Shown piece by piece: positions 31,646-41,956 of a DNA stretch of 41,956 nt. This DNA comes from a virus: IMG/VR virus record IMGVR_UViG_3300037189_033828, positions 1-41,956 of that record. One strand, 5' to 3'. A program made the translations under genes and the position numbers. Within the stretch, counting starts at the first letter, position 1. Every line of letters begins with the position of its first letter. Under the pieces are notes generated by a model. It had not been told where the DNA came from and did no database searches. It was given only the letters and a program-made list of their open reading frames with translations.

Positions 31646-31928
31646 TGGCAGGGTGTGCCTCGATACACTGAGAAGATGCCGCCGAACTTCTCGCTGACGA
31701 GCCTACAGCAGAACCGATAGGTGGGAGTTCGACGCCGTACTCCGCGGCGAGCGCTTCAACATCGAGGTTCGGGTGATCCTGTCTTGCAATTCGCCGCAGA
31801 TGATTGAGCCGCGATGGGGTGAGATTGCTGCGCATGTTGCTCACCGTCGTCGGGGGCGCGTTCATAGCTTGGGCAACCTTCGCGGTGCCGCCGAGAGCGT
31901 CGATGAGGGCGCAGGCAAATCCGTTCAT
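31638..31928 (-). CDS. Cro-like repressor (YdaS/Cro type HTH)
   Basis: A 96-residue protein. The ATG at 31928 gives the typical start of Cro/YdaS-type proteins: Ala-Leu-Ile-Asp-Ala-Leu-Gly-Gly-Thr-Ala-Lys-Val-Ala-Gln-Ala-Met, then Pro-Thr-Thr-Val-Ser-Asn-Met-Arg-Ser as recognition helix. The C-terminus is low-complexity Ser/Ala. It is divergent to the CI repressor across a 93-base gap with operators, the usual immunity switch. It would repress cI and favour lytic growth. Confidence 0.8.
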   Translation of the reverse strand: MNGFACALIDALGGTAKVAQAMNAPPTTVSNMRSNLTPSRLNHLRRIARQDHPNLDVEALAAEYGVELPPIGSAVGSSARSSAASSQCIEAHPANA

Positions 31929-31946
31929 GCGCCACCACATCCCAGA

Positions 31947-32003
31947 ATGGTATGTTCAGCGCAAGCAGAAAAGTACCATAACAGTAATTGCCATAATGGT
32001 ACT
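31947..32003. promoter_or_regulatory. cI/cro operator region
   Basis: Between the divergent start codons lies a perfect 8-base inverted repeat AGTACCAT (31972-31979) and ATGGTACT (31996-32003), plus a half site ATGGTA at 31947-31952. The same ATAATGGTA 9-mer occurs again at 32897-32905 before the rightward operon. These are the likely CI and Cro binding sites. The two promoters must lie here but no clean -35/-10 pair stands out. Confidence 0.65.
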
Positions 32004-32021
32004 CGGGGGTTCAATCGGCGG

Positions 32022-32600
32022 ATGGCATACGAAGACATCCAGCAGCGGCTTACCGACAGCGGGAAGCGGCAGGTCGACCTCGCGAATATGCTGGGCATTC
32101 TGCCAAACGCCATATCGAAGGCTTTCGCGGGCAAGCGCCGTTTTACCGCTGAAGAGATGGACAAGATAAGGAACTGGCTTGGCGGGACAGATGCGCCACC
32201 CCCAGGCGAGAGTGTCGGTACAATTCCCGTGCTCGGCAGCGTGGCGGCAAGCGGGTTTGCCGATCCAGCTGCCCATGCAGTCGGGCGCATGCACAAGCCT
32301 GATCCATCAATACCAGACAGAGCTATTGCACTCGACGTCGATGGCGACTCGATGGACTTGTACGTTCCAGCAGGTGGCCGGATTATCTACGATCCAGAGG
32401 ATCGCGCTCTTTACCCCCGTCGTTTTTACGTCGTGCTGAATGCTGCAGGCGAAACAACTTTCAAACGGTTTTTCGGCGATCCCGCACGTTTAGAACCGTG
32501 CTCGCACAATCCCGCCCACGTCACAATTTCGCTTAACGGTGACGAACCTTATACGATTGTTGGCCGGGTGATCTGGCAGGCTTCGCGCATGCCCGACTAA
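32022..32600 (+). CDS. CI-type repressor with S24 self-cleavage domain
   Basis: A 192-residue repressor. The N-terminal HTH (residues 5-52) has Gln-Val-Asp-Leu-Ala-Asn-Met-Leu-Gly and Asn-Ala-Ile-Ser-Lys-Ala-Phe. The C-terminal S24 domain has Ser110 in Gly-Asp-Ser-Met-Asp and Lys148 in Thr-Thr-Phe-Lys-Arg as catalytic dyad. The expected Ala-Gly cleavage site appears as Val-Ala-Ala-Ser-Gly-Phe (75-79). No clear Shine-Dalgarno lies at proper spacing before the ATG at 32022, so the message may be leaderless as for lambda cI. RecA-stimulated cleavage after DNA damage would induce the prophage. Confidence 0.88.
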   Translation: MAYEDIQQRLTDSGKRQVDLANMLGILPNAISKAFAGKRRFTAEEMDKIRNWLGGTDAPPPGESVGTIPVLGSVAASGFADPAAHAVGRMHKPDPSIPDRAIALDVDGDSMDLYVPAGGRIIYDPEDRALYPRRFYVVLNAAGETTFKRFFGDPARLEPCSHNPAHVTISLNGDEPYTIVGRVIWQASRMPD

Positions 32601-32820
32601 CTTTCCGACAGTGCGACTCCAGCCAAACTGTGTAGTCCATCCAGTCACTTTCGCGAGCTATCCCGCCAGGAACTGTGACATAGAACTGCCCGCCCTCGTC
32701 GTACCCGCCCAAACCTTGCCCTTCTAGGTCCGCTCGCACTTCGCGAAGGCTAGTACGCCAAGGGCCACATGCCTCACCGAAGCACGTTGCTCGATACCAG
32801 TGCGCCACGATGCTACTCAT
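32533..32820 (-). CDS. Hypothetical protein antisense to cI end
   Basis: A 95-residue protein whose 3' end overlaps the cI 3' end by 68 bases on the opposite strand. The sequence is Trp/Arg rich (Gly-Pro-Trp-Arg-Thr-Ser-Leu-Arg-Glu, Gly-Leu-Gly-Gly-Tyr-Asp-Glu, Tyr-Val-Thr-Val-Pro-Gly-Gly), a natural protein-like pattern that I believe is shared by small sphingomonad phage proteins. A TATAGT at 32893-32898 on this strand may be its -10. It might influence cI by antisense transcription. Function unknown. Confidence 0.5.
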   Translation of the reverse strand: MSSIVAHWYRATCFGEACGPWRTSLREVRADLEGQGLGGYDEGGQFYVTVPGGIARESDWMDYTVWLESHCRKVSRACAKPARSPGQQSYKVRHR

Positions 32821-32896
32821 CCGACTCGCTCGATAGCCATAGCCGCGAGTTGGAACAAAACGGGCACATCGGCAAGCGAGGCAAAGTGAAATTACT

Positions 32897-32943
32897 ATAA
32901 TGGTATTTTTCCTTTGACGATCGACATACCGTTACGGTAACTC
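32897..32943 (+). promoter_or_regulatory. Promoter/operator of rightward PRTRC-integrase operon
   Basis: A TTGACG -35 box (32914-32919) with a weak -10 (GTAACT/TAACTC) 17 to 18 bases later. Overlapping it are ATAATGGTA (32897-32905), identical to the cI/cro operator 9-mer, and the palindrome TACCG-TTA-CGGTA (32927-32939). The first gene begins at 32981. The arrangement suggests control by CI or Cro. Confidence 0.5.
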
Positions 32944-32980: not shown

Positions 32981-33334
32981 GTGCCGCATCCTCACATCCC
33001 TAGCCGCGAACAGGCCGACGCCTCGCTTCGCCGGTTCTATGATCGCTTGGGCCACCGCCCGCCCGCCTTGCGTTTCGATGATACGCCCCGGTTCGCGGAC
33101 CGACCGGTTCACGCCGACCTTGGCGCAACCGTTCGTCGCCTGCGCCGGGCCAACCCAGTCGCCACCATCGTTCGGCCAGCGCAGCCCGTTCGCTTGCGCT
33201 ATCGCCTCGCGCGACGCCGGTTCATCGACGGCACGAAGCGCCTGTTCGATGCCGGCATTACGATCGCGGTCGTCGGCATCGCCGGCTGGGTCGTCGTTCC
33301 CGCCGTCCTGTCCCTGATCGCGGGGAGGTTCTGA
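32981..33334 (+). CDS. Hypothetical C-terminally anchored membrane protein
   Basis: A 117-residue protein with a GTG start preceded by GGGAG. It is Arg/Pro/His-rich and soluble-looking for 85 residues, followed by one membrane segment (about 91-113, Ile-Thr-Ile-Ala-Val-Val-Gly-Ile-Ala-Gly) near the C-terminus, making a tail-anchored topology likely. First gene of the 9-kb rightward operon; its stop and the next start share a base (TGATG). No family recognised. Confidence 0.55.
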   Translation: MPHPHIPSREQADASLRRFYDRLGHRPPALRFDDTPRFADRPVHADLGATVRRLRRANPVATIVRPAQPVRLRYRLARRRFIDGTKRLFDAGITIAVVGIAGWVVVPAVLSLIAGRF

Positions 33335-33579
33335 TGGGCGACAGCACGAACCTCGAAGCTGATCCCCGCACGATCGCGTCGCGCCTGTCCGTCGGCCAGC
33401 GCCGCACGGTGCAAGCACTCGACGAGGACTATTGCATCCTTGGCTGCGCCGCAGCCTCGGCGAAACGGCTGGAGCGCAATGTCCCCGCCCGCCCCGCGCT
33501 GGTCGTCAGCCGTCGCGGCGAAGTGCACCGGGAGTTTGCCCTCAACGCGCTCGGCATGGCCGTGCAGGCGGTGCTCTGA
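33334..33579 (+). CDS. Hypothetical small protein of rightward operon
   Basis: An 81-residue soluble protein joined to both neighbours by TGATG overlaps. It has a helical start (Arg-Thr-Ile-Ala-Ser-Arg-Leu-Ser-Val-Gly-Gln-Arg-Arg-Thr-Val), then Cys-Ile-Leu-Gly-Cys and Ala-Lys-Arg-Leu-Glu-Arg, and Val-Val-Ser-Arg-Arg-Gly-Glu-Val. This could be a small winged-helix-like protein. No family assigned. Confidence 0.55.
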   Translation: MGDSTNLEADPRTIASRLSVGQRRTVQALDEDYCILGCAAASAKRLERNVPARPALVVSRRGEVHREFALNALGMAVQAVL

Positions 33580-33860
33580 TGGAGGCCGCACGCACCGCAG
33601 AACGCGAAGTCGCCGCAGTCATCGACCGACTCATGGCCGGCGCACCAGACGCACAGGCAAAGACCGAAGTTGCGATCATGGGGGCCGCAAGCGCGGTCGG
33701 CACCGCAGCAGGCGCCTTCTACGCCTTGCATGAAGCCAAGTTCGCGGCCGTGGACGAACGGGAATTTGCGCAAGCGCTTTGGGACATTCTCGCGCCGATG
33801 GTGTCTCGAAGCATCAGCGCCGTCCGGCTTTCCAGGGCCGCCGTGGAGGGCAATGCATGA
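33579..33860 (+). CDS. Hypothetical small helical protein of rightward operon
   Basis: A 93-residue, Ala-rich, helical protein starting at a TGATG overlap and ending in an ATGA overlap. It contains a weakly hydrophobic helix (Ile-Met-Gly-Ala-Ala-Ser-Ala-Val-Gly-Thr-Ala) and a C-terminal Arg-rich helix. No domain recognised. Translationally coupled within the operon. Confidence 0.5.
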   Translation: MEAARTAEREVAAVIDRLMAGAPDAQAKTEVAIMGAASAVGTAAGAFYALHEAKFAAVDEREFAQALWDILAPMVSRSISAVRLSRAAVEGNA

Positions 33861-34312
33861 CGCCGCTCGACGCCCCCGCGCCGCCCCCACCCTTCATTCA
33901 ACCGACCCTCGCCGACGTCACCACCGCCGCGCGCATTGTGGACAGTCGTGCTGTTATCTCAGCCTACGGATCAGTCGAATGGGACTGCCTCCACGATGAC
34001 GGCCAGATTTGGATCGCGGCAATAGTCCGTGAGGCGATGCGCCAGCCCCGATTCGTATCCGCCGAACTCCATGCGGAGATCAGCGGGTTCATCGTTCACA
34101 TGGCGAAGCACTATCGTCGACGCACCAGTCGCCGGCTGTGCGGCATCCGCGTGAACACGATGGGTCGCCAACAGGCGATGGAGCTTGCCTACGCCACCTA
34201 CGGTGCCTCGCTCGACGTCTTGGGCGTCCCCTTCGGCGACCCCAGCCTGCCTTGGGATCGCGACACGGCTCACGCCCTGGTCGACGAAGACCTTCAGCAT
34301 TGGGAACTGTGA
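33857..34312 (+). CDS. Hypothetical protein before the PRTRC ParB gene
   Basis: A 151-residue protein from the ATG at 33857 (ATGA overlap). After a Pro-rich N-terminus there is a folded-looking region with Trp-Asp-Cys-Leu-His-Asp-Asp-Gly-Gln-Ile-Trp-Ile-Ala, then a basic patch (His-Tyr-Arg-Arg-Arg-Thr-Ser-Arg-Arg), and Ala-Thr-Tyr-Gly-Ala. No family recognised. It ends two bases before the ParB-like start, so it is co-transcribed with the PRTRC set but is not one of the standard members I know. Confidence 0.5.
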   Translation: MTPLDAPAPPPPFIQPTLADVTTAARIVDSRAVISAYGSVEWDCLHDDGQIWIAAIVREAMRQPRFVSAELHAEISGFIVHMAKHYRRRTSRRLCGIRVNTMGRQQAMELAYATYGASLDVLGVPFGDPSLPWDRDTAHALVDEDLQHWEL

Positions 34313-34314
34313 CA

Positions 34315-35658
34315 ATGCTACCCGAAAGCACGAACTCGCCGGCAGCGCCGGCCACCACTTCCGAGCCGGACCTCGCGAACGCGCTGCTGTTCCCGCTGTC
34401 GCGGATCAAGCCCGGTGCCAACCCGCGTCGATACTTCGATCCGAAAAAGCACGCCGAACTCGTCGCATCGTTGAAGCTGCGGGGCATCCTGCAGCCGCTG
34501 CTCGTGCGCCCCGACCCGATCGACGCCGATTTCGTCCAGATCGTTGCCGGCGAGCGTCGTCATCGCGCCGCGGTCGAGGCGTTCGGCGCCGATGGCAGCG
34601 CGCCTGTCTTCATCCGCGACATGACCGATAGCGAGGCGCTGGAAGCGGCGATCGACGAGAACGACGCGCGGGACGATGCTTCAGAAACGGAGCAGGCCGA
34701 CGCCGCGGTTCGTCACCTCGCGGCATGCGGCGACGATCGCGCGGAAGCGGCGCGCCGGCTGGGCTGGTCGCGGGCCAAGCTCGACCGGCGCCTCGCCCTC
34801 GCGAACCTCGACGAGGCGGTGAAGGTCGCACTCGACGAGCGGCGGATCAAAGTCGGCCATGCCGAGCTGCTCGCCGTGGTGCCGCCCGACAAACAGGCCA
34901 AGGCGCTCGATACGATCCTGACCGCGGCGCTCGACGTCAACAAGACGCGCGAGATCCTCACGCGCATGACACAGAGCCTTGCGGCCGCAACGTTCGACAA
35001 GACCGAGTGCCTCACCTGCCCGTTCAATTCGGGATCGCAGCGCGCGCTGTTCGAGACGCACGTCGACGACGGCCACTGCACCAACCCGGGCTGCTATCAA
35101 CTGAAGAGCGAGGCAGCCGCTGAGACGGGCACCACCCCCGTCGTCGGCAATGGGGCTGCCGATGCCCCGGCGTCGGCGGGCGTAGCGGCTGCACCGGCAA
35201 CCAGTGCGCCGGCCGGCCCACGATCGTCCAAGCCTGCCAGCAAGCCGGCGTCGGCCGCAGCGCCAGCAGTCACTGCCGCATCGATGATCGCCACCGTGCG
35301 GACGACGATCTTGCGCGAGGCAGCTTGGCGCGCGGTGCTGATCCAGGCTGCGGAAGGCGACCCGGAGTTCGGCGCCACGTTCGAGGCGGTGCTGCGCGCC
35401 ACATGGCAGGTCGACGCCGCGTTCCTGACCGGCTTCGGCAAGGATGAGCTCAAATTCATCGCGCAGGAATGCGGGCTGGTCGCACACATGGGGCCGCGCA
35501 AGTTCGCCAAGCTGCTCGAGGCGAAGGTGCCCGACATCATCGCCGGCATGCTCAACGCCAAGGGCTTCGACTGGGCGGGACGCCTGCCGAGCGCGATGAC
35601 GTTCACCGGCGCCTACAGCCCCCCGCCGCCCGCGGCGCCCTCCACCGACAAGGATTGA
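34315..35658 (+). CDS. PRTRC system ParB-family protein
   Basis: A 447-residue ParB-like protein. The N-terminal ParB/Srx domain has Asn-Pro-Arg-Arg-Tyr-Phe-Asp (36-42), Gly-Ile-Leu-Gln-Pro-Leu-Leu-Val-Arg (57-65) and the nucleotide-binding Gly-Glu-Arg-Arg-His-Arg-Ala-Ala motif (79-86). An HTH segment follows (Ala-Ala-Arg-Arg-Leu-Gly-Trp-Ser-Arg-Ala-Lys). Near residues 225-265 a Cys-x2-Cys and Cys-x4-Cys cluster may bind zinc, which fits the PRTRC type. The C-terminal third is Ala/Pro-rich then helical. ParB proteins bind DNA and, in known cases, hydrolyse CTP. No ParA or ParM partner is encoded in the window. Confidence 0.85.
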   Translation: MLPESTNSPAAPATTSEPDLANALLFPLSRIKPGANPRRYFDPKKHAELVASLKLRGILQPLLVRPDPIDADFVQIVAGERRHRAAVEAFGADGSAPVFIRDMTDSEALEAAIDENDARDDASETEQADAAVRHLAACGDDRAEAARRLGWSRAKLDRRLALANLDEAVKVALDERRIKVGHAELLAVVPPDKQAKALDTILTAALDVNKTREILTRMTQSLAAATFDKTECLTCPFNSGSQRALFETHVDDGHCTNPGCYQLKSEAAAETGTTPVVGNGAADAPASAGVAAAPATSAPAGPRSSKPASKPASAAAPAVTAASMIATVRTTILREAAWRAVLIQAAEGDPEFGATFEAVLRATWQVDAAFLTGFGKDELKFIAQECGLVAHMGPRKFAKLLEAKVPDIIAGMLNAKGFDWAGRLPSAMTFTGAYSPPPPAAPSTDKD

Positions 35659-35662
35659 TCCC

Positions 35663-36094
35663 ATGCTGGTCAACAGCCTGTTGCCGCTGCTCGCCCGTTA
35701 TTCCCTCGGCTTCGATCTCGTTGCGGGTCCGGACGGCACCGTCACCCTAACCATCCTGCCCCGCAAGGCCGAGGGCGCGAAGCACACGCCCGAAGGCGCC
35801 GAGGTACGTCCGATCTCAATCACCGGCACCGCGGCCGAGATCGATGCCGAATTGGCGTTGGGTGCCGACGGCGCGCTCGGCCGACTGATCGCCACCCGTA
35901 GGGCGCTGGCCGATCAGATCGCCGAACAGCACGCTGCGGCCGACCATGCGAAGACCGCAGCGGCAGCGAAGGTGAAGCCTGCCACCAAGCCGGCCGCAGC
36001 CGCCGCAAAGGCCACTCCGACGCCGGCCGCGCCCGCCACGCCGCCGCCCGCCGTCGCCGATCCCGGCGAACCGGTCAGCCTCTGGAACGACTGA
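35663..36094 (+). CDS. PRTRC system protein E
   Basis: A 143-residue protein with AAGGA upstream of the ATG. The first 75 residues form a compact beta-type domain (Leu-Gly-Phe-Asp-Leu-Val-Ala, Val-Thr-Leu-Thr-Ile-Leu-Pro, Ile-Ser-Ile-Thr-Gly-Thr-Ala-Ala-Glu-Ile-Asp). The rest is an Ala/Lys/Pro linker ending in Leu-Trp-Asn-Asp. This is the plan of PRTRC protein E, and it lies in the expected order between ParB and protein C. Molecular function is not known. Confidence 0.75.
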   Translation: MLVNSLLPLLARYSLGFDLVAGPDGTVTLTILPRKAEGAKHTPEGAEVRPISITGTAAEIDAELALGADGALGRLIATRRALADQIAEQHAAADHAKTAAAAKVKPATKPAAAAAKATPTPAAPATPPPAVADPGEPVSLWND

Positions 36095-36132
36095 CCACGT
36101 CCGCACCCGCCAACCCCGTTTCGAGGCTTCCC

Positions 36133-36339
36133 ATGCAAATTACCGAACTCACCCGCGCCTACCGCTACGACGGCATCGATCTGCCCGTGCCCCCGCACCT
36201 TGCCGCCGATCCGCAGGGCCTGCGCGCCTATCATGCGACGCTCTACCCCGCGATCCTCAACGCCGAGACGATCGATGCCGGCATCACGAACGGGGTCCAC
36301 GTCACCGAATACCGCCGCGCTGTCGGCACAAAGGGCTGA
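36133..36339 (+). CDS. PRTRC system protein C, ubiquitin-like modifier candidate
   Basis: A 68-residue protein of the PRTRC_C / prokaryotic ubiquitin-like type. Signatures are Leu-Thr-Arg-Ala-Tyr-Arg-Tyr-Asp-Gly-Ile-Asp-Leu-Pro-Val-Pro at the start, a Tyr-His-Ala-Thr-Leu-Tyr-Pro middle helix and a C-terminal Tyr-Arg-Arg-Ala-Val-Gly-Thr-Lys-Gly. The chain ends in a free glycine, as needed for adenylation and conjugation by an E1-like enzyme. It would be the tagged modifier, activated by the ThiF-like protein and processed by the JAMM protein encoded downstream. No Cys and no lysine except at position 67. Confidence 0.85.
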   Translation: MQITELTRAYRYDGIDLPVPPHLAADPQGLRAYHATLYPAILNAETIDAGITNGVHVTEYRRAVGTKG

Positions 36340-36341
36340 CG

Positions 36342-36566
36342 ATGGCGCGGGCTTCGCGCGCCGCCATCCCCGCTTCGTCTCGCAAAACCCTGCTCAACTG
36401 GATCGACCATGATGATGGCGACACGCCCGGCACGACCCAACCCGCCTGCAGCCCCGACGTCCAGGCGCTCCACGCGCAAGTCCTCCTTTCGCCGGGCAGC
36501 AACCGCCACGGCCGCGGCGAACCCTTGCAGCCCCCGTCCGGCTTCCATCTTGCGCCGCTCGGCTGA
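36342..36566 (+). CDS. Small frame overlapping protein F start, uncertain
   Basis: A 74-residue frame starting two bases after the protein C stop. Its third codon positions are strongly GC, like real genes here, whereas the overlapping first part of the protein F frame is less so. It could be a real small gene, the true N-terminal part of protein F separated by a frameshift, or a shadow. No family recognised. Confidence 0.3.
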   Translation: MARASRAAIPASSRKTLLNWIDHDDGDTPGTTQPACSPDVQALHAQVLLSPGSNRHGRGEPLQPPSGFHLAPLG

Positions 36567-37542
36567 TCTGGCGGGGCGACCCGTCGCCCTGTCTATCGAC
36601 GTCCCCATCATGTTCGACGCGCCGCTCGCGTCGCATCACCGGACGATAGGCCGGTGGGTAGCCGAGCGCGAGCAGTCGGCGCAGCGTTGCACCCGGAACG
36701 GCGCCCGGCAGCGGATCGAGCGCGCCTTCGACGTTGCCGTTACCGAGATCCTCGGGCCGTTCGACCTCGCCGATCTCCGCGTCGTCGCGCTTATTGGCGA
36801 GGACGACCTTCCACCGGCCCTCGTCGTCGTTTGCGACTCGATCGGCCAGATCGACTTGGGCTGGATCGAGAAAAACAACGTCCTGTCGAACACGCTATTC
36901 GGCAATGTCGCACCGGTTGGGTGGCGCGCGGCCGCCTATCAGGCGCTCGTGCAGAGCCTGCGCGGCACCCTTCCCTACATCGGGTACGACGACCTCGTTG
37001 AGGAAATATCGGCGTACTATTGGGACGGCGAAACCGACGACGAGGGCGCCCGGAAGGCGTTGGTCGAGTGGCACGGCCACGACCCCGATGACCTCGACGA
37101 GATGACCTTGCCGTCGCAGATGGCCGCCAAGCGTCCCGACTGGATGACCGCGAAGGCGGCACCGCTGAGGGACATGCCGGCCGCTTTGCGCAAGGCGATC
37201 GCCCGACTCCGCAACGCCGATATCGCGTTGCGGGCAAGCCAGATGGCCCACAGCGCGTGGCGCCACGACCGCGACGAGGTTCTCGCCTACCTGCCGGAAT
37301 ACGAAGAGCGGGCGCCGATTCCGCCGCTCACACTCGTACCGATGGATCAGTTCGCCCGCGAACTGGATGACGTCGGCCGCTTCGGCATGGAGCAGGGGTT
37401 CGACGACGTGATCGGCCTGTGTCCGCTGATCGAACCAGCCCCGATCGACGCATGGCTCGCGTCCCTGCGCATCGGCGCCGAGGTTCTGCTGGCCGCCCAG
37501 GACCTCATCAACCTCGATCCCGCCAACTCGGTGACGTCATGA
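36409..37542 (+). CDS. PRTRC system protein F
   Basis: A 377-residue frame in the PRTRC F position. From about residue 58 the sequence is a normal protein (Val-Ala-Leu-Ser-Ile-Asp-Val-Pro-Ile-Met-Phe-Asp-Ala-Pro). It continues with a domain containing Val-Val-Cys-Asp-Ser-Ile-Gly-Gln-Ile-Asp and Tyr-Ile-Gly-Tyr-Asp-Asp-Leu-Val-Glu-Glu-Ile-Ser, and ends in a helical acidic C-terminus. The first 55 residues are Arg/Ser/Ala low-complexity and may not be translated; a start nearer 36550-36610 is possible. Function of protein F is unknown. Its stop overlaps the protein B start (ATGA). Confidence 0.7.
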   Translation: MMMATRPARPNPPAAPTSRRSTRKSSFRRAATATAAANPCSPRPASILRRSADLAGRPVALSIDVPIMFDAPLASHHRTIGRWVAEREQSAQRCTRNGARQRIERAFDVAVTEILGPFDLADLRVVALIGEDDLPPALVVVCDSIGQIDLGWIEKNNVLSNTLFGNVAPVGWRAAAYQALVQSLRGTLPYIGYDDLVEEISAYYWDGETDDEGARKALVEWHGHDPDDLDEMTLPSQMAAKRPDWMTAKAAPLRDMPAALRKAIARLRNADIALRASQMAHSAWRHDRDEVLAYLPEYEERAPIPPLTLVPMDQFARELDDVGRFGMEQGFDDVIGLCPLIEPAPIDAWLASLRIGAEVLLAAQDLINLDPANSVTS

Positions 37543-38351
37543 GCATCACGACACAATTCGAGGCCACCGACGGCAGCCTGACGCTGACCAACGCCATCCT
37601 GCTGTATCAGGGCGGGGAGCGCGACGACCTCAATCGGTTCGTGCTGTCGCGTAAGCACGGCCCAACGTTCGCCAGCATCCACGACGTCGAGCTTCTCGCC
37701 GACGGCATGCCGACGATCGCAGCCGGTACGCCGCTGACGCGCGAACACCTGCGGCAATGGACCGAGGCGCTGGGCCGCAACCAGGTGCCGGAGATCCTTC
37801 CCGACAACGTGTTGGTCGCCCACCCCGACGTCCTCGCGTGGTGGGTGCCGGCGAAGGTCCGCACCTCCTACTTTGCCCTCTCGCACCCGCCAAAGACCCT
37901 GCAGGCGCTCGCGAAGCGGATCGTCCTGCAGCTTCCCTATCCCGCGCACGTCTTCGTCGCGACGCGTGGGCGGCTTGGCGTCTATGCCCTCCGCTCGAGC
38001 GAGCGGCCGACCGCGGACACCGCGCTCCTGCACTCGCCCATTCTGAATGTCTTCATCAGCGGGCAGTTGTGCTGGGGCAACGTGCCCGTGCCGAAGTCGA
38101 TCAACCCTGCGGCCATCCCGGAATACGAGCGCGCAGTATTCGATTCATGGTCGACCCACCCAAACCCCGGCCAGGAGCACACGGTGCCCGGTCGCGGCGG
38201 CCTCGTGCGCCTGTGGGACAAGCTGGCAGCGCGCAGGGCGACGACCTTCCCGGCCGAGCTGCTCAAGCCGTTCCCTGCGGATGCCGGCGCCGCCACCTCG
38301 CAAGAGGCGCTGACGCTCGGCGCGCTCATCAAACGGAGCGCTCGCGCATGA
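37539..38351 (+). CDS. PRTRC system protein B, E2-like candidate
   Basis: A 270-residue protein starting at the ATGA overlap with protein F. The pattern (Leu-Tyr-Gln-Gly near residue 22, Trp-Trp-Val-Pro-Ala-Lys-Val-Arg-Thr-Ser-Tyr-Phe near 101-112, Leu-Pro-Tyr-Pro-Ala-His-Val-Phe-Val at 132-140, Gly-Gln-Leu-Cys-Trp-Gly-Asn at 175-181) matches PRTRC protein B. From memory, related families have been described as divergent prokaryotic E2 proteins. Cys178 is the only cysteine in the chain and lies in a Leu-Cys-Trp-Gly context, so it is the natural candidate for a thioester-forming residue. This role is inferred, not shown. Confidence 0.8.
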   Translation: MSITTQFEATDGSLTLTNAILLYQGGERDDLNRFVLSRKHGPTFASIHDVELLADGMPTIAAGTPLTREHLRQWTEALGRNQVPEILPDNVLVAHPDVLAWWVPAKVRTSYFALSHPPKTLQALAKRIVLQLPYPAHVFVATRGRLGVYALRSSERPTADTALLHSPILNVFISGQLCWGNVPVPKSINPAAIPEYERAVFDSWSTHPNPGQEHTVPGRGGLVRLWDKLAARRATTFPAELLKPFPADAGAATSQEALTLGALIKRSARA

Positions 38352-39007
38352 CCCCGCTCGCTGACGACCTGACGGCCGCCGAGGTACTGGACGCCGTCCC
38401 CTGTCTGCCGGTGCCGCCCTTCGGTCGGTCGCCCGCGATCGATGCGCTGCGCGCGATGCGGACCGGCCATGGCGTCACGCTGGGCAACGACGGCGTCATG
38501 ATGATCCTGCGCCGGCCATGGCTCGAGGTCGACATGCCGGTCGCCACGCCGATCGCCGCATACCTGCCGTATGGCAGCATGGGCGAGCCGCGGTTGGTGC
38601 TGCGCTGCGGCCTCGTGCCGGCCGACGTGCTGTCGGAGATCCTCGCGCACCTCCGCGCCGCGCTGCCCGACGAGGCCGCGGCGTTCGTGATCTGGAACGA
38701 GGCAACGCGGGATTTCGCCGTGCAATATCCGGTGGTCGATCACGCCACGCCATCGCGCCTGGTCTATCGGACGCCCGCTATTCCGATGGGATGGCACCTC
38801 GTCTGCGACGTCCATAGCCACGGCCGGGCGCCGGCGTTCTTCAGCGCCACGGACGACGCGGACGACGCGCACGCGACCAAGATCGCGATCGTCTTCGGCC
38901 ACCTCGACGCCCCCGACGGGCCAACGACAGCTTCCCGCCTATGCGCGGGCGGCATGTTCCTGCCCCTGCCCCGCAGCCCTTTCGCTGGAGCTTCCCATGT
39001 CGACTGA
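38348..39007 (+). CDS. PRTRC system protein A, JAB/JAMM metalloprotease
   Basis: A 219-residue protein from the ATGA overlap at 38348. The JAMM motif is complete: Asp154-Val-His156-Ser-His158 then seven residues to Ser166 and Asp169 (HxHx7SxxD), with Glu118 a likely upstream catalytic Glu. Such enzymes bind zinc and cut isopeptide bonds or trim ubiquitin-like proteins at their C-terminal glycine. Its expected substrate here is protein C or its conjugates. The 3' end overlaps the ThiF-like gene by 11 bases. The N-terminal 80 residues may be a regulatory domain. Confidence 0.87.
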   Translation: MTPLADDLTAAEVLDAVPCLPVPPFGRSPAIDALRAMRTGHGVTLGNDGVMMILRRPWLEVDMPVATPIAAYLPYGSMGEPRLVLRCGLVPADVLSEILAHLRAALPDEAAAFVIWNEATRDFAVQYPVVDHATPSRLVYRTPAIPMGWHLVCDVHSHGRAPAFFSATDDADDAHATKIAIVFGHLDAPDGPTTASRLCAGGMFLPLPRSPFAGASHVD

Positions 39008-39770
39008 CGTCACCAACCGGCACTTCCTGCCCGCGGGCTATGGCGAGCGCGGGATCGAAGTCCTTCTCGTCGGCTGCGGTGGCAATGGCGCGCAGATGCT
39101 CATGGGGCTGGCGTCGCTCGACGCGGCACTGCGCGCGATCTCGTCGCGGTCGTTAAACGTCACGGTCGTCGACGACGACACGGTGAGCGAGGCGAACCTT
39201 GGTCGTCAGCCCTTCTATCGCTGCGACCTGGGCGCGTCGAAAGCCCGGACGCTGGTCGAGCGCATCAACATCGCGCATGGCCTCGACTGGCGCGCGGTGC
39301 ATGGCCGTGCCCCCGACGCGGTCGGCCTGCGCGGCATCGACGTCCTTATCACCTGCGTCGACACCGCGGCCGCGCGACGGGCGATCGGCGCTGCGATCGT
39401 CAGCGGCCAATCCGCCCCCCGCTACTGGCTCGATCTCGGCAACCGCGCGACCGACGGGCAATTCATCATCGGCTGCCCCGAACCGTCGTTCGGAAAGCAC
39501 GCCGGCCGGCTGCCGACGGTCCTCGAATATTTCCCCGAACTCGCCGACGCCGGCATTGCCGAAGATGATGCGCCGTCCTGCTCGGTCGCCGAGGCGCTCG
39601 ATCGGCAGTCGCTCTTTATCAACCGAGTGGTGGCCAGCCATGCGTTGGCGCTGCTGTTCGATCTGCTCGGCCGCGGGTCGATCGGCCACGCCGGCGCCTT
39701 CATCAACCTCGCCAGCGGGCAGGCGGCGCCGATCGCGCTGCCGCGCTCTGAAACGGAAGCAAAGTCATGA
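38997..39770 (+). CDS. PRTRC system ThiF/E1-like adenylating enzyme
   Basis: A 257-residue E1-like protein. The Rossmann nucleotide loop is Gly-Cys-Gly-Gly-Asn-Gly (26-31). Asp-Asp-Asp (59-61), Asn-Leu-Gly-Arg-Gln (67-71, Arg70) and Ser81-Lys82 are the conserved ATP and metal residues of the E1/ThiF family. Cys195 in Pro-Ser-Cys-Ser is the best candidate catalytic cysteine; others are Cys27, 76, 120 and 160. It would adenylate the C-terminal glycine of protein C and pass it on, perhaps to protein B. The following gene is coupled by ATGA. Confidence 0.87.
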   Translation: MSTDVTNRHFLPAGYGERGIEVLLVGCGGNGAQMLMGLASLDAALRAISSRSLNVTVVDDDTVSEANLGRQPFYRCDLGASKARTLVERINIAHGLDWRAVHGRAPDAVGLRGIDVLITCVDTAAARRAIGAAIVSGQSAPRYWLDLGNRATDGQFIIGCPEPSFGKHAGRLPTVLEYFPELADAGIAEDDAPSCSVAEALDRQSLFINRVVASHALALLFDLLGRGSIGHAGAFINLASGQAAPIALPRSETEAKS

Positions 39771-40180
39771 ACATCGATCCTATCGCGAAGATCGGTCCGC
39801 GGGTTCGCGAATTGGTCAACGATGGCGACGGGTACTGGCGGTCGTGTTCCGGATGCCACGAAACCGAGGATGGTCATCCAGTCGGGCATTACGACCACAG
39901 TTCAGCGCTCGGGTGCAGCCTCGGAAGCGGCTGCCGCGAATGTGGCGGCATCGGTGCCACTTGGGATAGCGCGGATTACGAGGGCTATGCCGAATTCGCT
40001 CGTGAACAGGACGAGAAGCGAGACGCGGTTCGCATCCTTCGTCGGCGGTTAGCCTGGCTTCAGACCACCTTTGCTCACGATCTGCCTAAGCATCCCGGTT
40101 ACAGCGACAGCGACGGGTTGTGGAACGCAGATCAGATCCTCGAACAGGCTCGCGCGCAGCTGGATGAGGATTGGCCATGA
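39767..40180 (+). CDS. Hypothetical Cys/His-rich protein after the ThiF gene
   Basis: A 137-residue protein with a Cys/His cluster in the first half: Ser-Cys-Ser-Gly-Cys-His at about 26-31, His-Tyr-Asp-His, then Cys at 50 and Cys-Arg-Glu-Cys-Gly-Gly at 56-61, a likely zinc-binding site. The C-terminal half is helical with Arg/Glu/Trp. Similar proteins occur in alphaproteobacterial phages but I know no function. Coupled by ATGA overlaps to both ThiF-like and downstream genes, so it may be a partner of the PRTRC set. Confidence 0.6.
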   Translation: MNIDPIAKIGPRVRELVNDGDGYWRSCSGCHETEDGHPVGHYDHSSALGCSLGSGCRECGGIGATWDSADYEGYAEFAREQDEKRDAVRILRRRLAWLQTTFAHDLPKHPGYSDSDGLWNADQILEQARAQLDEDWP

Positions 40181-40638
40181 CACCCCCCATCTATGCCGCC
40201 CCCCAGCACCGCCACCTATGTGCTCGCGCCGCGCAGATGCTGTTGCGCATTCGCGAGGAAGGCTACCCCGCCGCGATCGAGGCGAAGAAGATCACCCCGG
40301 CCGATGCCGAGCGTGGCCTGCGGCTGGCGCGGTGCATCGTCGATCAGTGGCGATGGATCATGGACCCGGCGCAGCCGCCATGTCCCGCGTGGGACGAGAA
40401 GACGGACCTGTTCGGTGCATACAGCTTCGAATTGGAGGCCGAGCTATCGCGCGCTGCCGTGCGGCAGCGGGCAATCGCCAAGCGCAAGCCGGTCAACGAT
40501 GCAGCGGTGCAGCTGGCCGACCTATACGAGGCGTTGGCCTGGCTGCAGCGTACCCGTCACGGCGTCGCCTGGATCGTCATGCGGGTCGACGTCGAGCGGT
40601 CGGCCGCCGCAGCGAAGTCTCTGGCGAGGGCGGCATGA
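40177..40638 (+). CDS. Hypothetical phage protein before integrase
   Basis: A 153-residue protein from the ATG at 40177 (ATGA). It is helical, with Tyr-Pro-Ala-Ala-Ile-Glu-Ala-Lys-Lys-Ile-Thr-Pro-Ala-Asp-Ala-Glu-Arg, then Trp-Arg-Trp-Ile-Met and a C-terminal Val-Glu-Arg-Ser-Ala-Ala. No family assigned. It is part of the same compact operon. Confidence 0.55.
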   Translation: MTPPIYAAPQHRHLCARAAQMLLRIREEGYPAAIEAKKITPADAERGLRLARCIVDQWRWIMDPAQPPCPAWDEKTDLFGAYSFELEAELSRAAVRQRAIAKRKPVNDAAVQLADLYEALAWLQRTRHGVAWIVMRVDVERSAAAAKSLARAA

Positions 40639-40814
40639 CGGCGCCGGCTCGCTTCAAGCAAGACGACGTGACCCGGGCCGTCAAAGGCGCGACCGCCGCC
40701 GGCATGCGCGTCGGCCGTGTCGAAATCGACCCCAACGGTCGGATCGTGGTATTGAGCGAATCGGTCGCGCCCCCGACGGCGCGCAACGATTGGGACGACG
40801 AACTCCGCAGATGA
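40635..40814 (+). CDS. Small phage protein upstream of integrase
   Basis: A 59-residue protein from the ATGA at 40635. It has a basic helix (Arg-Phe-Lys-Gln-Asp-Asp-Val-Thr-Arg-Ala-Val-Lys-Gly), then Gly-Arg-Val-Glu-Ile-Asp-Pro-Asn-Gly-Arg-Ile-Val-Val and an acidic C-terminus. Very short proteins of this type are common just upstream of integrases in alphaproteobacterial prophages. Could be an excisionase-type accessory, but this is not shown by sequence. Confidence 0.6.
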   Translation: MTAPARFKQDDVTRAVKGATAAGMRVGRVEIDPNGRIVVLSESVAPPTARNDWDDELRR

Positions 40815-41956
40815 CACGCCGGCAGCTGAAGACGAACCGCTTCCTTCCCCAGTATGTCACGACGTTTAAAGATCGGCATGGCAAGCCCCACCTGCGCTTC
40901 CGTCGCAAAGGTTTCCCATCGGGCTATTTCAAGTCTGCGCTCGGCACCGAAGACTTTCGGATAGAGTACGCCGCATTCATGGACCCGACAGCCCCCGCGA
41001 AGGCAGCGGAACAGGCGCGCATCGATCGGGCGACGCCAGGCAGCCTGCTCGACCTGTTCAACCGTTATGTCGGCGTCCCCGAACGTCTCGGCCCAACGGT
41101 GCCGACACAGAAGCGAGTGCGGGGAGTGTTGGAGCGCTTCGTGGAAGGGCGTGAGGCGCGAATGGTCCGCGACGTGCGGTTCGACCACCTCGACGCAATC
41201 ATCGCGAAGGCGCGGGTAAAAACAGGCACAGGCAACAAGACGCTTGGTGGCATCGAGGCCGCGAAGAAACTGCGCAAAGAGCTTGTCCGTTTCTTCGAGT
41301 TTTCGGTGAAGATTGGGATGCGCGCCGACAACCCGGCGACGCACACGGATCGTGTCAAGGTCGCGCCCGCGGAACGCTCGAAGGGCTATCACACTTGGAC
41401 CGAAGACGAAATCACCCAGTATCGCGCCCATCACAAGCTCGGGACCGCCGCTCGCCTCGCGATGGAGCTGATCCTCTGGACCGATCAGCGACGGGTCGAC
41501 AGCATCCATCTTGGGCGCCAGCATATCGCCGATGGCCGGTTCACCATCAGCCAGACCAAGACGGGCAAGACGCTGCGCATCGCAATCGCGCCGCAGCTGC
41601 TCGAGGCTATCGTTGCTATGCCGCCAGCGCCGGGCGCCATGTGCTTCCTGCTCAACGAATTCGGCCGGCCATTCAGCAAAGCAGGTTTCGGCAATAAGAT
41701 GCGCGACTGGTGCAATGCGGCCGGGCTGCCCCACTGCACCGCCCATGGTCTACGCAAGGCGACGATGCGCCGCATGGCTGAGCTCGACATGGGCAATCAG
41801 ACGATGAAGGCGATGTCGGGTCACAGCAAGGATGACGAGGTCGCGCGCTACACGCGCGATGCCAATCAGATGCGCATGGCAGACACCGCGGTTGCCGCTC
41901 TTTCCAAGTGGGAAGTGTCTAACCTCAGCCCCGAGTTAGACACCAAATCCGCCTAG
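40811..41956 (+). CDS. int: Tyrosine integrase
   Basis: A 381-residue tyrosine recombinase starting at the ATGA overlap at 40811. The N-terminal SAM-like core-binding domain (about 75-175) precedes the catalytic domain with Arg227 (Thr-Asp-Gln-Arg), Lys250, His312-x2-Arg315, His338 (Gly-His-Ser) and the nucleophile Tyr347. It would integrate and excise the phage by recombining attP with attB. Its stop codon is the last codon of the window, so the attachment site and host junction lie outside. The gene is the last of the rightward operon. Confidence 0.93.
   Translation: MTRRQLKTNRFLPQYVTTFKDRHGKPHLRFRRKGFPSGYFKSALGTEDFRIEYAAFMDPTAPAKAAEQARIDRATPGSLLDLFNRYVGVPERLGPTVPTQKRVRGVLERFVEGREARMVRDVRFDHLDAIIAKARVKTGTGNKTLGGIEAAKKLRKELVRFFEFSVKIGMRADNPATHTDRVKVAPAERSKGYHTWTEDEITQYRAHHKLGTAARLAMELILWTDQRRVDSIHLGRQHIADGRFTISQTKTGKTLRIAIAPQLLEAIVAMPPAPGAMCFLLNEFGRPFSKAGFGNKMRDWCNAAGLPHCTAHGLRKATMRRMAELDMGNQTMKAMSGHSKDDEVARYTRDANQMRMADTAVAALSKWEVSNLSPELDTKSA

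Follow-up and report, generated by a model that had tools for sequence, protein, structure and literature searches.

The stretch of DNA analysed here is the IMG/VR virus record IMGVR_UViG_3300037189_033828 over its whole length (positions 1 to 41,956; hereafter the window), which carries terminase, portal, HK97-type capsid and tape measure genes together with primase, CII-like, Cro-like and CI-like genes and a tyrosine integrase. At 34315-39770 we found seven adjacent open reading frames (ORFs) on the + strand that encode, in this order, ParB, E, C, F, B, A and ThiF proteins of the PRTRC type (ParB-related, ThiF-related cassette), exactly as an earlier note made from the sequence had listed them. 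The genes are given below, with the score of each protein against its family and the cut-off of that family in bits (NCBIfam for the TIGR families).

A PRTRC cassette with intact catalytic residues

34315..35658, + strand: PRTRC ParB-like protein of 447 aa (TIGR03734, 326 against 278.6; Pfam ParB_N/HTH_ParB), with invariant residues and a likeness to Spo0J, Noc and KorB structures
35663..36094, + strand: PRTRC E (TIGR03741, 75 against 38), structure model with a predicted local distance difference test score (pLDDT) of 75
36133..36339, + strand: PRTRC C, predicted ubiquitin-like modifier (Pfam Prok_Ub, 63.5 against 25), ending ...YRRAVGTKG with an invariant C-terminus
36409..37542, + strand: PRTRC F, large alpha-helical protein (homologs match TIGR03742), structure model with pLDDT 83
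37539..38351, + strand: PRTRC B, predicted E2-like conjugating enzyme with invariant C178 and H207 (TIGR03737, 171 against 131; Pfam Prok-E2_D)
38348..39007, + strand: PRTRC A, predicted JAMM/JAB deconjugase with E109, H156, H158, S166 and D169 (TIGR03735, 156 against 102; Pfam DUF2016 and Prok-JAB)
38997..39770, + strand: PRTRC ThiF, predicted E1-like activating enzyme with invariant ATP-site residues and C195 (TIGR03736, 270 against 145; Pfam ThiF)

Five of the seven proteins score above their NCBIfam cut-offs, and the families of A, B, C and ThiF, on which the earlier note had made its identification depend, are all matched. C stays just under the cut-off of TIGR03738 (40.6 against 45.95 bits, E=2e-10) and is recognized by Prok_Ub and by its conserved position in the gene order. 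The F protein of the window has no match to TIGR03742 (PRTRC_F) and is placed in the PRTRC set through its homologs: it was aligned with proteins that are 48-66% identical to it, and 32 of the 53 members of this alignment match the family. Its position is conserved. PHROGs, a collection built from phage proteins, gave no family for E, C, B and A, a marginal match for F and, for ThiF, a weak match whose function is not known; the cassette is therefore essentially invisible to standard phage annotation.

By its predicted proteins, the cassette is the ubiquitin-like/E1/E2/JAB operon type 6d of Iyer et al. (2006; PMC1779556), in which conjugation of the ubiquitin-like protein via E1 and E2 and its removal by the JAB protein were predicted. 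All five components of that type (a ubiquitin-like protein, a JAB protein with JAB-N domain, an E1, an E2 and an alpha-helical protein) are present in the window, as are the C-terminal glycine of the modifier, the arginine and tryptophan of JAB-N and the E2 cysteine with its downstream histidine; the extra helical protein, described as having conserved charged and polar residues, corresponds to F, the model of which is mostly helical and the alignment of which contains conserved residues. ParB and E lie outside the description of type 6d. In a survey of about 70 alpha-proteobacterial loci plus the Burkholderia phage BgVeeders33, the JAMM residues of A, the arginines and tryptophan of its N-terminal domain (R55, R56, W58), C178 and H207 of B, the C-terminal GTKG of C, and the E1 ATP-site residues and C195 of ThiF, the latter of which we infer to be the E1 catalytic cysteine, were all invariant or nearly so. 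The ratio of non-synonymous to synonymous substitution rates (dN/dS), calculated for pairs of close phage cassettes, was mostly 0.05-0.27 across all seven genes, with an outlier of 0.47 for F and, in some pairs, not a single amino-acid change in C. As judged from these residues and ratios, the cassette is catalytically intact, with all seven genes under purifying selection.

The ParB-like protein contains the CTP-binding motifs GERRHRA and ENxxR, a helix-turn-helix (HTH) and a Cys-rich segment; the CTP-binding and HTH motifs and the likeness to Spo0J, Noc and KorB fit a CTP-switched DNA-binding regulator or localiser. The models of E and F gave no significant fold match in the PDB (nor, for F, in BFVD), and the sequences of B and C had no match in the PDB. 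F of BgVeeders33 comes near Pfam alpha-hel2, at 23.7 bits below the cut-off of 25. Matches of ThiF to PPR proteins in the PDB sequence search were set aside as a probable short composition artefact. Phage lambda has genes with the same folds, for the tail assembly proteins K (JAB) and I (ubiquitin-like), but these are tail genes without E1 and E2, whereas the set in the window lies outside the tail region.

Carriage in temperate phages and on plasmids

The window is that of a temperate tailed phage, with terminase, portal, capsid, tail, repressor and integrase genes on one contig. The record begins at the stop codon of one gene and finishes at the stop codon of the integrase gene, which fits a provirus trimmed at the borders of genes, the host flanks of which are therefore not visible. 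In a ThiF scan we found 23 viral loci, most of them with the full ParB-E-C-F-B-A-ThiF order. HK97-type capsid, terminase or portal genes are present in six of these records besides the window, and another four or five have terminases of a different family; both terminase and portal genes of the lambda type adjoin the cassette of a close isolate relative (L067), and the portal gene adjoins that of L070. A prophage of Novosphingobium NDB2Meth1 (G015) carries tail sheath and baseplate genes, indicative of a contractile tail, and is bounded by direct repeats of 49 bp at 120622 and 183400, of which the former lies at the 3' end of a tRNA-Val gene.

When 50,697 phage records were searched at the protein level, three came up, with near-full coverage of the query only in BgVeeders33 (OK665841). 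This isolated, contractile-tailed phage has E-C-F-B-A-ThiF in the order of the window, all above the NCBI cut-offs and mostly annotated as hypothetical; it differs from the window in that it lacks PRTRC ParB, has an extension of 61 residues on the ubiquitin-like protein and has a ThiF that is 44% identical. Its integrase gene, at 31749-32918 on the - strand, is absent from the GenBank annotation. A scan with its ThiF added 47 viral loci, presumably, to judge by similarity, from Burkholderia hosts, with all six genes in 46 and PRTRC ParB in none; structural genes were recognized by similarity in four of the six Burkholderia-type records examined. Some 70 viral contigs, which differ in head and tail type, thus share this gene order, for which the earlier note had proposed a survey of prophages; no cassette neighbours were widely shared outside each lineage.

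That same note had named a plasmid integrated beside the phage as an outcome that would overturn its idea. PRTRC is usually described from plasmids, and a plasmid or integrative element could have been joined to a phage on one contig by assembly or by adjacent integration. This is so improbable that it can practically be set aside: between 32981 and the stop of the integrase at 41956, cassette included, the ORFs overlap or nearly touch, as would be expected of one transcription unit, and a second metagenome contig (L002) has the same region and arrangement at about 100% identity. Searches of 24 phage records for ParA and for the coupling protein of type IV secretion system (T4SS) conjugation found neither, with controls that were detected, and the set is present in an isolated phage and inside the attachment-site repeats of G015. 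The cassette belongs to the phage and not to a plasmid next to it.

On sphingomonad plasmids such as pLA4, these genes are known in this order as the PRTRC system (NCBIfam TIGR03734-TIGR03742); the window differs from these in its residence in a temperate phage, in the lack of a detected PRTRC D and in its probable control by CI. ThiF of the plasmid cassette type is 75% identical to that of the window. The tree built from B, A and ThiF places 40 loci from plasmids or genomes, all with a long ParB (510-590 aa, against 447 aa in the window), in one group with a single phage; almost all the remaining rows are phages or prophages, in most of which ParB measures 420-485 aa. In a wider ThiF tree the Burkholderia-type phages stand apart, with 99% support, from the phages and plasmids of sphingomonads, and we conclude that carriage by phages is old and comprises at least two branches. 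Because BgVeeders33 sits on a long branch, the root of the first tree is unusable, and we make no claim as to whether plasmids or phages had the cassette first. One locus (L100) groups with a phage in one of the trees; the single protein of it that was scanned had no match to a phage family.

The distribution also bears on the possibility that the cassette is passive cargo, a selfish or decaying insertion without a role for the phage, as might be suspected from its presence on plasmids and from the apparently frameshifted C gene of a Novosphingobium ST904 prophage. We consider this very unlikely, since a comparison of phage copies shows purifying selection on each of the seven genes, the phages have a radiation of their own with a shorter ParB, and the cassette has been retained repeatedly across different head modules. 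In the ST904 prophage (L004 and L068) the terminase ORF is split as well, owing to decay or sequencing error.

Among the functions raised in the earlier note (DNA maintenance, host takeover or defence), maintenance fared worst. A plasmid-style aid to segregation or replication, centred on ParB and borrowed by the phage, could be argued from the frequency of PRTRC on plasmids, where it has been described as a partition system (PMC7466150), and from the retention of a ParB with CTPase motifs in sphingomonad phages. Nevertheless, we hold it to be unlikely. A ParABS system has a ParA partner, and ParA (PF13614) had no match in the 24 records; PRTRC D was not found in them either, in a search that had no positive control. 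PRTRC ParB is missing from BgVeeders33 and the 47 Burkholderia-type loci, no shared parS-like palindrome stood out near the cassettes, and integrated prophages do not need partition. The lack of ParA and PRTRC D, and of ParB in the Burkholderia phages, therefore indicates that partition is not the core function.

PRTRC is a family of long standing, with a predicted role in protein tagging. The table and text on type 6d name no phage (PMC1779556), and in the open-licence literature we found neither a function assigned to PRTRC nor a description of it from phages; carriage by phages, its breadth and its regulation appear to be undescribed.

Operator-like boxes and a proposed early expression

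Outside the cassette, the features that bear on its expression are as follows.

31941..32021, no strand: gap between the divergent CI and Cro genes, with operator-like boxes of the ATAATGGTAY type at 31944 and 31993
32022..32600, + strand: CI-type repressor (PHROG transcriptional repressor, E=9e-26)
32897..32906, + strand: third such box, ATAATGGTAT, ahead of the cassette operon, with a putative regulatory function
32981-33334, 33334-33579, 33579-33860 and 33857-34312, + strand: four short overlapping ORFs without assigned function that run gap-free into the ParB gene
39767-40180, 40171-40638 and 40635-40814, + strand: three short overlapping ORFs without assigned function that link the cassette to the integrase gene
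40811..41956, + strand: tyrosine integrase (Pfam Phage_integrase, PHROG integrase)

The PHROG and Pfam matches bear out the placement of the cassette between the CI repressor and the integrase of a temperate phage; the Cro-like, CII-like and primase genes are on the strand opposite to CI and the cassette. That the cassette belongs to a single unit ending in the integrase holds for the window and several relatives, but elsewhere it lies upstream of the terminase. No family match was found for the three ORFs scanned out of the four in 32981..34312, and no significant one for the ORFs at 39767-40180 and 40171-40638. The ORF at 33579-33860 resembles the Acb2/Tad1 hairpin domain below the threshold (E=0.07), which by itself is not evidence.

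We searched the whole window (42 kb) for the box ATAATGGTAY, allowing at most one mismatch, and found three occurrences against 0.39 expected: two in the CI/Cro gap and the third just ahead of the cassette operon. The exact word TAATGGTA occurs twice, against 0.03 expected. Scans for promoter and terminator consensus sequences gave nothing above chance. In lambda, OR and OL flank cI; the layout of the operators is alike here, with the cassette in the place of the pL operon. The products of the lambda pL operon act early and include counter-defence proteins. The pattern is best seen in the Burkholderia-type phages, where the words are much longer: seven loci have an AT-rich dyad of 17-23 bp, five have another operator-like word of 15 bp, and there are further ones besides; one copy of such a word lies in or near the CI/Cro gap and an inverted copy about 0.85-0.95 kb off, before the cassette operon. 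These motifs suggest that the cassette operon is early, repressed by CI and lambda pL-like.

The boxes also weigh on the idea that the cassette is a prophage-borne defence akin to Bil, which would tag the virion proteins of rival phages and thereby make the lysogen resistant to superinfection. Protection against invading replicons has been proposed as a role of mobile E1/E2/Ub/JAB operons (PMC1779556), Bil operons, which are broadly of this kind, act against phages according to work cited in PMC11354881, and CI, cassette and integrase are on one strand in the window, as for lambda rexAB. Our initial idea was accordingly an expression in the lysogen like that of rexAB, an idea weakened by the operator-like boxes before the cassette, which suggest repression by CI in that state. 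The Bil and Bub operons share E1, E2, JAB and a ubiquitin-like protein with the window, but PADLOC recognized a weak E1-E2 likeness in ThiF and had no match for the six remaining proteins, and the modifier is a single ubiquitin-like domain (one Prok_Ub) whereas BilA has two in tandem; Bil-type proteins were thus not recognized in the cassette. We regard defence as rather unlikely, although it is a stronger candidate than maintenance. Since the boxes point to early expression, they favour takeover or counter-defence over defence by a quiet prophage.

Possible modifier precursors and the proposed tagging pathway

The C protein of the window stops exactly at GTKG. It has one additional arginine in five sphingomonad phages, and in most Burkholderia-type phages up to about 100 highly variable residues follow. 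In these Burkholderia-type loci (L165-L211), most with the C gene at about 6.4-7.0 kb, the invariant RRAVGTKG is followed by hypervariable, exchangeable extensions of several unrelated types. In most plasmid copies examined C ends at the GTKG point or a few residues from it, with the exception of that of Azonexus. GTKG plus an extension is what a ubiquitin-like precursor cut by a JAMM protease would look like, and such extensions would need trimming by that protease.

In the pathway that we propose, ThiF (E1) would adenylate the C-terminal glycine of C, B (E2) would hand C on via its cysteine, and A (JAMM protease) would trim C precursors and remove C again. F and E would probably be target-recognition or accessory subunits, and the ParB-like protein would be a DNA-binding CTP switch that localises or regulates the cassette, rather than a partition protein. 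In its pL-like position the operon would be under repression by CI for as long as the lysogen is quiet, its expression would begin early once infection or induction has taken place, and early tagging of host or phage proteins would most likely favour the phage, by host takeover or counter-defence. The chemistry of reversible tagging is well predicted and, like the targets, inferred. We tentatively favour, at somewhat short of an even chance, the reading that the cassette is a complete, CI-repressed ubiquitin-like conjugation and deconjugation pathway of temperate phages, used for reversible tagging early in infection for host takeover or counter-defence.

Several points weigh against this reading. 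Sphingomonad plasmids keep the same cassette, so that a role in infection cannot be its only role. The operator evidence in the window consists of only three short boxes, and repeated 13-base words occur in 18 of 45 Burkholderia loci, against 24 of 45 in a GC-rich control stretch; as the raw count is not above the control, the case in those phages rests on the length, AT-rich composition, dyads and constant geometry of the words. Moreover, several sphingomonad phages have the cassette on the terminase side of the repressor (examples of this position are L070 and G017), and one regulatory scheme may therefore not fit all phages.

A more general form of the proposal is possible too, and we hold it a little more loosely: temperate phages of alpha- and beta-proteobacteria would run their own complete E1-E2-ubiquitin-deubiquitinase pathway as an early operon, controlled by the immunity repressor, that rewires host or defence proteins. 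The modifier of the Burkholderia branch would then be a precursor, the exchangeable C-terminal extension of which is cut off by the phage JAMM protease and may be a separate variable effector. Ubiquitin-like conjugation would thus not only be a matter of host defence, as phages appear to have it in diverse, long-lived lineages, and the phage-carried cassette, with one in an isolated phage, offers a genetic system small enough for its targets and its benefit to be measured.

Some plasmid cassettes depart from the common pattern. Variants are found on a plasmid of Pseudomonas aeruginosa LYT4 (L230) and on one of Azonexus (L231), one of them without gene A between B and ThiF and the other without ParB and with a C protein of 124 residues. 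On plasmid pLA4 (L140:1-6500) a gene for a Piwi-domain protein and two recombinase genes lie upstream of the PRTRC cassette.

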